The position numbers were made by a program, and so were the translations under genes. The notes below the pieces were generated by a model. It did no database searches. It was given only the letters and a program-made list of their open reading frames with translations, and was not told where the DNA came from. Source: Sulfurimonas sp. (GTDB lineage Bacteria > Campylobacterota > Campylobacteria > Campylobacterales > Sulfurimonadaceae). From it: a stretch of 17,765 bases of DNA. This document shows positions 246 through 3,218 of the stretch, piece after piece; the stretch's first letter is position 1; every line of letters starts with the position of its first letter. The DNA lies in NCBI GenBank assembly GCA_030673275.1, contig DAOVJL010000003.1:1-17765 (forward strand). Reading direction: 5' to 3'.

Positions 246-779
246 TTATTTGGCTTTTGGTCTAAAGGCTTTGATAACCTCTTCATTAGTCTCTATAAAT
301 GGGCCTTCAATTAGGTCTATACAGTATGGAACTGCTGGAAATACTGCATCTAAACACTCACGGATTGACTTTGGCTTACCAGGTAGATTTATAATCAAAC
401 TCTTACCTCTAATTCCAGCAGTTTGACGAGAAAGAATAGCAGTTGGCACATACTGTAAGCTCACTTGACGCATAAGCTCACCAAATCCTGGCATCATCTT
501 CTCACAGACATTTTCAGTTGCCTCAGGAGTAACATCTCTTAAAGCTGGACCTGTTCCACCGGTTGTAACAACTAAACAACACCCCGCCTCATCACAAAGT
601 TCTTTCATAGTACTCTCAAGAATATCCTGTTCATCTGGTATACATCTGTAAACTATCTCAAATTCACTAGTTAAATAATCTTTCATAGTATCTTGAATTG
701 CTACTCCGGATATATCTTCATATATCCCTTTACTTGCTCTGTCACTTGCTGTTATTACGCCTATTTTTATTTCACTCAT
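246..779 (-). CDS. mogA: Molybdopterin adenylyltransferase (MogA/MoaB family)
   Basis: This enzyme adenylylates molybdopterin with MgATP, which prepares it for molybdate insertion in molybdenum cofactor synthesis in the cytoplasm. The 177-residue protein has the single MoCF-binding fold: MSEIKIGVITASDRASKG at the N terminus, the family signature TTGGTGPALRDVTPEAT at residues 72-88, and NLPGKPKSI at 131-139. The length is normal for stand-alone MogA. The ATG is preceded by AAAGGGAT at good ribosome-binding distance. An AT-rich TATAAAAT on the minus strand (complement of 800-807) could be its -10 box. It is separated by 287 bases of structured non-coding DNA from the upstream bioV gene, so it probably has its own promoter. 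The related MoaB subfamily cannot be fully excluded. Confidence 0.93.
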   Translation of the reverse strand: MSEIKIGVITASDRASKGIYEDISGVAIQDTMKDYLTSEFEIVYRCIPDEQDILESTMKELCDEAGCCLVVTTGGTGPALRDVTPEATENVCEKMMPGFGELMRQVSLQYVPTAILSRQTAGIRGKSLIINLPGKPKSIRECLDAVFPAVPYCIDLIEGPFIETNEEVIKAFRPKAK

Positions 780-915: not shown

Positions 916-959
916 TAGTATAAGTTTTATTAGTTTACTGAGTAGATTTTTTAACGGTT

Positions 960-1001
960 CTAAAAATTATTAAAAATTCAAGGATGAATTTTGATTTTTA
1001 G
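960..1001 (+). other. Long hairpin with apical AGGA loop (CsrA-type element 1)
   Basis: The outer arms 960-967 (CTAAAAAT) and 994-1001 (ATTTTTAG) pair perfectly. The inner arms 973-980 (AAAATTCA) and 985-992 (TGAATTTT) also pair perfectly. The apical tetraloop is AGGA at 981-984, closed by CA/TG. The loop context CAAGGATG matches the core of the CsrA SELEX consensus. On the minus strand the same stem is followed by AT-rich sequence and could act as a weak terminator for the bioV operon. Confidence 0.5.
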
Positions 1002-1002
1002 C

Positions 1003-1033
1003 CTCGGAGAAACTACAAGGATGTAGTTTTGAG
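1003..1033 (+). other. Hairpin with apical AGGA loop (CsrA-type element 2)
   Basis: The arms 1010-1017 (AAACTACA) and 1022-1029 (TGTAGTTT) form an 8-bp stem around the AGGA loop at 1018-1021. A second stem, 1003-1005/1031-1033 (CTC/GAG), leaves a further GGA (1006-1008) in an internal bulge. CTACAAGGATGT matches 11 of 12 positions of the CsrA consensus RUACARGGAUGU. The loop lies 37 bases from that of element 1. Confidence 0.5.
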
Positions 1034-1066
1034 AATGAGTTAATAAATTTACTTAGTAAACGTCAA

Positions 1067-1588
1067 TCACCTTACTTGTAAAAAATGATTTGCATCTTTA
1101 ATATATGTAACAGTAGCTACATGTAAAAAGAATTCTCTAGCAGACTCAACATCTATAATCTTATCTTCACTACCAAGATAAACCTCAATTTTAATACCTT
1201 TTTTTGCTAAAGACTTAAGTTCTTCTATGTCCCATTCATAATTAAGCAACTCTTCTAATTCATCGACATTAGTCTCATAATGCTCAATATTTTTTTTACT
1301 ATATGGAGAAAAACACAAATCTAAAAAATCTTTCAGATACTTGTTTTTATCTTTTCTATATCCAATTAACTGAAGCTTTTTGAATTTAGCACCTTTAGTC
1401 TGAAAAAAAGCAGGAGAAAAAAGTTGTAAAGTATCTACTCTTGCACCAGACAGTAACTGTTCTTTGGCATATTCAAATGCCCCAAGAGCACCGTAACTAA
1501 ATCCACAAACGTTATAATCCGTATAGTTTATATACTCATCAAAAAGTGTCTGCTCATTTTTTAAAGAAAAACCACTCTTAAATATCAT
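1067..1588 (-). CDS. bioV: Pimeloyl-ACP methyl ester esterase (BioV type)
   Basis: BioV is the Campylobacterota counterpart of BioH. It removes the methyl group from pimeloyl-ACP methyl ester and ends the pimelate stage of biotin synthesis. The 173-residue length fits the short BioV family (about 170). Visible features are the N-terminal FKSGFSLKNEQTLFDEY block, the nucleophile elbow GFSYG with Ser31, a probable acid Asp142 in GSEDKIID, and His168 in KDANHFLQ near the C terminus. This order matches the H. pylori BioV sequence as I remember it. Its ATG overlaps the 3' end of the FtsH-like gene by 11 bases, so translation is probably coupled. It is the last gene of the block before the structured gap. 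A generic small alpha/beta hydrolase is the alternative. Confidence 0.82.
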   Translation of the reverse strand: MIFKSGFSLKNEQTLFDEYINYTDYNVCGFSYGALGAFEYAKEQLLSGARVDTLQLFSPAFFQTKGAKFKKLQLIGYRKDKNKYLKDFLDLCFSPYSKKNIEHYETNVDELEELLNYEWDIEELKSLAKKGIKIEVYLGSEDKIIDVESAREFFLHVATVTYIKDANHFLQVR

Positions 1589-3218
1589 CTATTAACTTTT
1601 TAACATCTTCTTTAGTGATACTTTCTCTCTCAAATAGAACAGCCTCTACGCTATTCATAACTTCAGGCAAAGAATCTAAAAGTTGTTTAGTTTCTTCATA
1701 CAGTCTCTTCATAAGAACTTCTTGTTCTGACTCATTAGATATCAAAAATGAACCCATTCCATACTCTTTGAGCATCTTATCTACTAACACTTTTGCTTCA
1801 TCTAAATCAACTTTAGCACTACTTGCATGTTCATTGTACTTAATATCACATGCGACCATACCTGCTAAAAACATTTTAACTCTTGATTCTAGCTCATGCT
1901 TAATAAGCGGTTCATCTGTGGACGGAGTAAGTTTTTCATTTGAAAGAAGAAGTTTCTCAAATGGCAGATCAAAATATGTTGCACATATAGCTTTAGCAGC
2001 TTGATAAGTCACATGATACTCTTTTTGTTTTTCACTTAACATCTGAAGTTTTTTCTTTCCAAACATTACCTTATCTTTTACTTGATGGAAATGTTCTATT
2101 GTAACTTGAAAATCATGTTGTCTTATTGCAAGAAGAGATGCCTCATTTACAAGTGCTGCCAGTGAAGCACCATTAAATCCTACTGTCATATTTGCAACTG
2201 CCTTTACATCTAACTCATGAGGAACTTTATCTAGATACTTGACTAAAATTGATTCTCGCTCTCTTTTTGTTGGAAGTTCAACAAAAACTCTTCTGTCAAA
2301 TCGTCCAGCCCTAAGAAGTGCTGAGTCTAAAACATCTATTTTATTTGTTGCAGCTATAACTATAACTCCACTGGAACCTTCAAAACCATCCATCTCAGTT
2401 AATAGTTGATTTAGGGTAGCTTCTCTCTCATCATTTCTCTGTCCATCTCTTTTTTTACCAACAGCATCTATCTCATCGATAAAAATAATTGAAGGAGAAT
2501 TGTTTTTAGCAGCCTGAAAAAGATCGTGTACTCTTTTTGCACCCATACCTACATATATCTGAACAAATGAAGCACCACTTTGATAATAAAACGGAACACC
2601 TGCCTCATGTGCCACAGCTTTTGCTATCATAGTTTTACCAACACCGGGAGGACCTACTAAAAGTACACCTCTTGGCATTCTTGCACCAAAACTTTTGTAG
2701 CGTTTTGGTTTTTTCATAAAGTCTATAATCTCTTCAAGCTCAATTTTAACATCACTTATTCCACCGATATCGCTAAAAGTAACATCACTTTTTATAGACT
2801 CAATTGGTGATTGTTCTTCTAAGGAGCCAAATATATTATTATTGGTATTTTTATTTTTAGCAATAGCATCTTTTTTTTGATACCATCTAAAAAGAAGACT
2901 TCCCCCACCAAGAAGCAGAACTAAAAACAGAAGATATACAACAAAACTTGAGCCACTTCTTACTTCCACTTCATAATCTAAAAACATCTCCGGTGTGACC
3001 TGTGAAGATGCTATTTTATAAACATCTTTATCTGTTTTAAGATAAATATACTCATCTGAAGCGATTACACTTTTTACTGAATGATTTTTTAATATGGTTT
3101 TTGCATTATTAAGGGTTATTGAATTTGCATTGTCTCTTAATATTGCAAATAAAACTAATATAATTACTAAAAAAGCTGATGCATAAAGTACTACTCTATT
3201 TGACCTATACTTTGCCAT
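1578..3218 (-). CDS. FtsH-like membrane AAA+ ATPase lacking the HExxH protease site
   Basis: The 546-residue protein has FtsH architecture: TM1 (about 9-28), a small periplasmic domain, TM2 (about 91-110), and a cytoplasmic AAA+ domain. That domain has Walker A GPPGVGKT (189-196), pore motif YVGMGA (222-227), Walker B IIFIDEID (244-251) and the second region of homology up to GRFDRR (305-310). The C-terminal peptidase-like domain is present, but the zinc-binding HEAGH is replaced by QAAKA (406-410). The distal Asp region (KVDLDEAK, about 469-476) is kept. It should therefore hydrolyse ATP and unfold or remodel membrane proteins without cutting them; this is inference. It is shorter than canonical FtsH (about 630-650). 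Its ATG overlaps mtaB by 14 bases and is preceded by GAGGAG. A paralogue at the same position is known to me in H. pylori and C. jejuni, which also have a canonical FtsH elsewhere. Confidence 0.9.
   Translation of the reverse strand: MAKYRSNRVVLYASAFLVIILVLFAILRDNANSITLNNAKTILKNHSVKSVIASDEYIYLKTDKDVYKIASSQVTPEMFLDYEVEVRSGSSFVVYLLFLVLLLGGGSLLFRWYQKKDAIAKNKNTNNNIFGSLEEQSPIESIKSDVTFSDIGGISDVKIELEEIIDFMKKPKRYKSFGARMPRGVLLVGPPGVGKTMIAKAVAHEAGVPFYYQSGASFVQIYVGMGAKRVHDLFQAAKNNSPSIIFIDEIDAVGKKRDGQRNDEREATLNQLLTEMDGFEGSSGVIVIAATNKIDVLDSALLRAGRFDRRVFVELPTKRERESILVKYLDKVPHELDVKAVANMTVGFNGASLAALVNEASLLAIRQHDFQVTIEHFHQVKDKVMFGKKKLQMLSEKQKEYHVTYQAAKAICATYFDLPFEKLLLSNEKLTPSTDEPLIKHELESRVKMFLAGMVACDIKYNEHASSAKVDLDEAKVLVDKMLKEYGMGSFLISNESEQEVLMKRLYEETKQLLDSLPEVMNSVEAVLFERESITKEDVKKLIDDI

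Follow-up and report, generated by a model that had tools for sequence, protein, structure and literature searches.

Background

The element described below combines two familiar types of component: MITE-like repeats and hairpins that bind CsrA. The decoy sRNAs of Gammaproteobacteria (CsrB/CsrC and RsmX/Y/Z) resemble it in carrying GGA motifs in hairpin loops, with loops of the CANGGANG type. The decoys have many such sites, whereas the element has two, at the arm tips of a three-way junction; it is also dispersed by insertion, shows no promoter of its own and occurs even where csrA was not detected. According to the sources cited here, CANGGANG hexaloops are high-affinity targets of CsrA/RsmE (PMC4894983; PMC6692469), the CsrA sites of Campylobacter jejuni are (C/A)A(A/U)GGA within hairpin loops (PMC4894983) and the RsmN motif is ANGGAN (PMC3791407); the loops of our locus, CAAGGATG, fit all three motifs as given there. 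C. jejuni is described as having no decoy sRNAs and using FliW (PMC6692469). The flaA mRNA leader of C. jejuni, a target and titrator of CsrA, is like the element in having two adjacent hairpins with ANGGA loops, but in the cited account it is a single cis leader with a spacing of 21 nt, while the element is intergenic, lies in either orientation and mostly has a spacing of 36–40 nt (PMC4894983).

Prokaryotic MITEs, as characterized in PMC10969869, are comparable in being short, with inverted ends and many copies; in the element no conserved ORF was seen, and target duplications accompany it in one genome (G295). It differs from MITEs in that its inner core is conserved across phyla, with the outer stem, P1, conserved only by pairing. 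In MITEs the pattern of conservation is usually the opposite. REP/BIME, ERIC and similar sequences are, as is the element, intergenic palindromic repeats in high copy; the element differs from them in size, in its three-way junction and in its cross-phylum core. The TwoAYGGAY RNA motif (RF01731) also consists of two hairpins with GGA-type loops. No Rfam match supported placing the element there, with the window region searched at E 10 and 10 relatives at the cut-off.

Fold of the window locus

A sequence-only reading of the window (the whole stretch of 17,765 bp of Sulfurimonas DNA that was analysed) had pointed to two adjacent hairpins with identical AGGA loops 37 bases apart. Both are located as claimed, with perfect 8-bp stems (AAAATTCA-AGGA-TGAATTTT and AAACTACA-AGGA-TGTAGTTT) and loops at 981–984 and 1018–1021, and the offset was given correctly. 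No other AGGA-loop hairpin with a perfect 8-bp stem is present on either strand of the window; among 300 dinucleotide-shuffled windows, two had at least one such hairpin and none had two. The region 960–1033 marked in that reading is the inner part of a larger fold, in which the two loops are the tips of arms P2 and P3. Positions 930–1063 fold as a single three-way junction at −42.5 kcal/mol, compared with a mean of −19.66 (SD 3.1) in 200 shuffles, none of which was as good (z −7.37). The twin hairpins are genuine, and a chance palindrome is ruled out by the fold z-score and by the hairpin counts in the shuffled windows. The junction, whose core is near-invariant, is closed by the long stem P1, and an unpaired strand leads from P3 back to P1. 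The features of the locus are listed below.

246..779, − strand: flanking gene for a molybdopterin-binding (mog/moaB-like) protein (Pfam PF00994, E 2.1e-25)
933..1061, + strand: whole element copy with three-way-junction fold (fold; match of covariance model R1 at 941–1052, 109.2 bits; absent at 22 of 30 orthologous sites)
933..955, + strand: 5′ arm of stem P1, paired with 1039–1061 (fold; two-sided changes in 13 of 14 modelled P1 pairs, 13 copies)
956..1003, + strand: arm P2 with AGGA tip at 981–984, GGA at 982–984 (fold; covariation)
1004..1034, + strand: arm P3 with AGGA tip at 1018–1021, GGA at 1019–1021 (fold; covariation; GGA positions)
within 1004..1034, + strand: conserved UCGGA at the P3 foot, GGA at 1006–1008 (GGA positions)
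1030..1039, + strand: conserved core stretch TGAGAATGAG at the P3–P1 joint (GAGAATGA in 45 of 45 rows of alignment A6)
1039..1061, + strand: 3′ arm of stem P1 (fold)
1067..1588, − strand: flanking gene for a putative alpha/beta hydrolase (PF12146, E 0.0005, below the cut-off), the anchor for the empty-site test

Between the mog gene and the element lie ∼150 bp (780–932) that have no counterpart of that length in the relative G133 and contain a perfect 14-bp palindrome, TGACACTAGTGTCA, at 901–914. Beyond the hydrolase gene, an FtsH-like AAA protein is encoded at 1578–3218 (− strand); its Peptidase_M41 match covers only positions 49–109 of 191 and HExxH is absent, so the protein is perhaps a protease-dead paralogue.

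Selection on pairing and on strand

The same reading had suggested that loops and pairing are under selection, and the relatives bear this out with strong covariation: 30 of the 34 modelled pairs show two-sided changes in a set of 45 diverse copies. In this set 92.3% of the cells of the 34 pairs are paired, two-sided-change cells number 519 against 158 in shuffles and the covariation score is 0.795 against 0.168; the count of further pair types separates less sharply from the shuffles (101 compared with 95.6, and 35 of 500 shuffles as high). Four pairs are invariant and lie at the feet of P2 and P3, two in each arm. RNAalifold, applied to the same alignment, recovers the three helices with two-sided changes in 27 of 31 pairs and pairs the P3 foot two bases further on. 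Alignments A3–A9 lean towards the model, being fitted to it; alignment A2, made with MAFFT from 13 copies, is not model-fitted and has two-sided changes in 22 of 34 pairs, counted on a structure written after looking at that alignment.

G-U pairs outnumber A-C mismatches by 62 to 10 in the helices and by 414 to 146 in P1 under neutral scoring, where related copies inflate both counts; in genome G731 alone the numbers are equal, six of each. This excess of G-U over A-C identifies the + strand as the strand selected to fold. It marks selection on the folded + strand, either as RNA or as single-stranded DNA, with RNA the most likely form.

Relatives and spread across phyla

The Sulfurimonas genome has a second copy, 81% identical, which has lost the P2 GGA and lies between two ORFs whose translations are purH-like and cbpA-like. 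In the family, 14 of 151 genomes have DNA matches at E 0.001. Covariance model R1, built from 13 copies, detected the element at E 0.01 in 23 of 228 family genomes and in 15 of 397 class genomes, six of these 15 being single matches (E 0.0064–0.0094) within one genus that are not relied on. The copies in two Sulfurimonas contigs are identical to copies of the same-genus genomes G211 and G212. Among the listed matches of a pattern scan that were examined (81, L122–L202, of L122–L242), carriers belong to Nitrospirota, Desulfobacteraceae including Desulfospira joergensenii, Spirochaetes, Omnitrophota, Sulfurospirillum, Sulfurimonas and other Campylobacterales. The P1 energy cut was passed by 64 of the 81 matches; six were dropped by eye and two sub-cut matches were added, so that 60 were used, three of them duplicating copies already in the set.

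Model R2, built from 45 diverse copies, was applied to 11 carriers at E 0.001 and gave 142, 127, 49, 42, 33, 26, 8, 8, 5, 5 and 1 matches; up to 150 candidates were scored per genome, so that the largest counts, 142 (a MAG of Nitrospirota) and 127, are lower bounds. For both R1 and R2, matches to the copies on which the model was trained follow from its construction. Within Nitrospirota, 55 of 295 genomes carry the element at E 1e-4. Searches of Rfam 15 gave no model at the curated cut-off for the window and 10 relatives, and no match at E 0.1 for 18 further relatives. No published description was found in a limited literature search at the level of titles and abstract openings. The element is apparently an undescribed, dispersed three-armed RNA-like fold present in several phyla.

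Mobility of the element

Thirty orthologous sites were compared (the best of 117 hydrolase-bearing genomes): 22 hold only 16–36 bp between the hydrolase and mog genes, and the element is present at three (own genome, G133 and G101). The unit including P1 is therefore an insertion, and the shortness of the 22 empty sites excludes insertion of the core into a hairpin that was already there. Other inserts of 116–172 bp, some of which themselves contain palindromic repeats, occupy five sites (L245, L253, L254, L263 and L272); the equivalent of 780–1066 is an insertion hot spot.

The campylobacterotal genome G295 has 23 copies with common ends. Their flanking direct repeats have a mean score of 6.91 compared with 4.88 (SD 0.18) in partner shuffles, 0 of 300 of which were as high; the score is 8 or above in seven of the 23 copies, and the aligned flanks suggest a target duplication of ∼10 bp. 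No duplication signal was seen in Sulfurimonas (28, L051 and L052 left out), in the contigs of pattern-scan genomes (59) or in G526/G559 (10 copies). Each of the 32 matches to the end sequence of G295 lies next to an element copy, and a search for an autonomous transposon with the same ends, made in G295 as the sole genome, found none. In its many short copies, inverted ends and lack of coding capacity the element resembles a MITE. When 662 flanking ORFs were clustered and the 25 largest clusters judged by eye on the first 70 residues, the two largest clusters with mixed contexts were an ABC transporter and a helicase; these were the two mixed-context clusters scanned, so a rare mover among the others could be missed.

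In G574 (54 copies) six P1 groups of at least five copies have a common core; P1 differs between groups with pairing kept. At least two of the groups contain the core in both orientations within the same outer ends (L317/L323; L278/L311), a pattern that recombination between the P1 arms would produce by inverting the spacer. At L128, L170, L201, L373 and L374 two or three copies lie close together on one strand. Six D. joergensenii copies (L134, L147, L153, L157, L167 and L202) form a longer unit with an extra outer arm beyond P1, the ends of which are GGTTCTCAAAA-like and TTTTGAGAAC-like.

An origin from phages or plasmids was rejected, as there were only a 23-nt phage match and a 32-nt plasmid match, both at E 0.03. 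The former is an exact match of the window P3 hairpin to positions 115174–115196 of Aeromonas phage AerS_266 (OR496884.1), where no feature is annotated. A single pattern match in IMG/VR has a weak P1 and was taken as chance. A dispersed palindromic repeat had been named as the alternative to a CsrA-binding RNA; the element is indeed such a repeat, and this is compatible with the CsrA reading.

Tip loops and csrA

In a census of 183 copies (nine of 192 were dropped), GGA occurs in 173 P3 arms and 149 P2 arms, and CANGGANG in P3 of 122, as counted over arms and not over loops alone. Of 19 chosen carriers 17 have a detected csrA gene, as do 3 of 14 control genomes; the two carriers without a match are the Sulfurimonas genome and the MAG G579. 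The csrA gene that the CsrA-binding reading presupposes was not found in the Sulfurimonas genome itself, which is 68.6% complete, and is present in all three same-genus relatives tested (G053, G133 and G101). There are single deviations in both directions: the Desulfobacteraceae MAG G579 has GGA tips and no csrA match, and G052, outside Nitrospirota, has csrA and a sole copy with a GAA tip.

Among the 295 Nitrospirota genomes, carriers of the element do not have csrA more often than non-carriers (28 of 55 and 139 of 240, p 0.37), and 12 of the 24 genomes with eight or more matches have no csrA match; CsrA thus does not explain the spread of the element. The lack of this link might be read as refuting a CsrA role, an objection that is overturned by the loops of the copies from genomes without csrA. 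GGA lies within a predicted hairpin loop of P2 or P3 in 22 of 22 csrA-positive and in 2 of 25 csrA-negative carriers, with p 2e-11 in a test that ignores descent. The comparison uses 114 copies from best matches, which sample 47 of the 55 carriers (eight unsampled). Counted per copy, the tip GGA is present in P3 of 41 of 47 csrA-positive and 6 of 67 csrA-negative copies, and in P2 of 33 of 47 and 5 of 67. The two csrA-negative exceptions are G731 (tip GGA in five of five copies), where csrA may, as a guess, be unassembled, and G719 (two of eight). Once G731 is set aside, the csrA-negative copies have the tip GGA in 2 of 62 cases and CANGGANG in none of 62, and the core CTCGGA in 60 of 62; over all copies the core CTCGGA is kept in 43 of 47 csrA-positive and 65 of 67 csrA-negative cases. 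In 34 two-tip copies the GGAs are 29–44 nt apart, and 36–40 nt in 28 of them (window, 37 nt). Some of the csrA absences in MAGs and Nitrospirota genomes may be false.

The CsrA reading of the loops, put forward from the window sequence, is supported by this contrast in tip GGA between sampled Nitrospirota carriers with and without csrA. The tips are likely to be CsrA docking loops.

Interpretation

The main rival is shared descent: the element would be a structured mobile repeat unrelated to CsrA, its fold and tips recognized, as RNA or single-stranded DNA, by a mobilizing enzyme, and the csrA link would reflect ancestry. We regard this as possible yet the weaker reading. It agrees with the independence of element presence from csrA, with a core conserved without csrA and with one P2 type common to many csrA-negative copies. 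The element tree (86 columns) is weak, and its well supported branches hold one forced change of csrA status and one independent pair. Against ancestry, the best tree needs eight changes of csrA status (7–9 in bootstraps) compared with 15.8 in shuffles, the tip motif is kept across phyla, and what is lost corresponds exactly to the CsrA motif of the two tips, with the core GGA retained.

Two further alternatives concern the transcript. In a portable cis switch, insertion into a leader would put the downstream gene under CsrA control, and the position of copies in short intergenic gaps, several Sulfurimonas copies lying 26–55 bp from a start codon, would suit such a role. The folded strand in the window is, however, antisense to both neighbours, and by a simple ORF caller the flanks of 93 copies are both antisense in 23, both sense in 14, divergent in 14 and convergent in 10, the remainder being unresolved or within an ORF call; in a second set of 102 (3 of 105 copies dropped) the numbers are 21, 17, 9 and 9. 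In a consensus scan of the window there was a single promoter-like site (− strand), compared with 1.8 in shuffles, and no terminator-like site. The antisense context and these scans argue against the cis switch, which we consider very unlikely, and do nothing to favour a dedicated sRNA gene. A riboswitch or fixed cis leader was rejected given the unrelated contexts and free orientation.

The sequence-only reading had raised the possibility of such a gene, a CsrB/RsmZ-type sponge RNA, here taken as having its own promoter and being copied around. The twin CsrA-type hairpins speak for it, as do U-tracts directly 3′ of P1 in L114 and L115 and a site common to 10 distinct Sulfurimonas copies beside a gene named mnmG from its translation; this common site suggests that the copy there has been retained and may be of use. 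That part of the reading is not supported, given the lack in the window of a promoter-like site above chance and of a terminator-like site, the antisense strand and the dispersal by insertion. Moreover, the G295 copies end at P1 and abut target duplications, so that a promoter of their own could not fit outside P1, and we hold a dedicated gene to be very improbable.

The explanation that we favour, by a modest degree, is of a short non-coding MITE-like element whose + strand folds, most likely as RNA, into a three-way junction held by P1 and which would dock or capture CsrA where the host has it. In csrA-positive hosts, CsrA would bind the P2 and P3 tips, of the CANGGANG type with GGAs ∼37 nt apart, as loop sequence and spacing suggest; the two tips would most simply be bound by both faces of one CsrA dimer. 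Transcripts containing the element in + sense could then capture CsrA, and the captured protein may shield the RNA of the element. At high copy number the element would draw CsrA off its mRNA targets and act as a mobile decoy. The junction core stays where csrA was undetected and the tip GGAs are missing, which indicates a separate, CsrA-independent task, probably recognition by the mover of the element. A more far-reaching version, which we put forward as speculative, is of a cross-phylum mobile RNA family that uses CsrA as a host factor, presents a pair of CsrA docking tips per copy on a conserved junction, spreads via the folded RNA in a SINE-like manner, drains or rewires the CsrA network and sheds its tips in lineages without csrA.

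What appears to be new here is the union of a mobile repeat with CsrA hairpins, together with the cross-phylum core and the csrA-linked tips; no title or abstract among those listed in the limited literature search describes this union. The one-strand bias in the paired arms raises the question of by what route selection came to act on the folding of a single strand in a MITE-like DNA element. The lineages that lack both csrA and the tips form a natural experiment, and the CsrA claim is directly testable. If CsrA binds the element, mobile RNA decoys of CsrA exist outside Gammaproteobacteria. A large structured family that is absent from Rfam 15 and reaches >100 copies in some genomes would join the non-coding sequence of bacteria.
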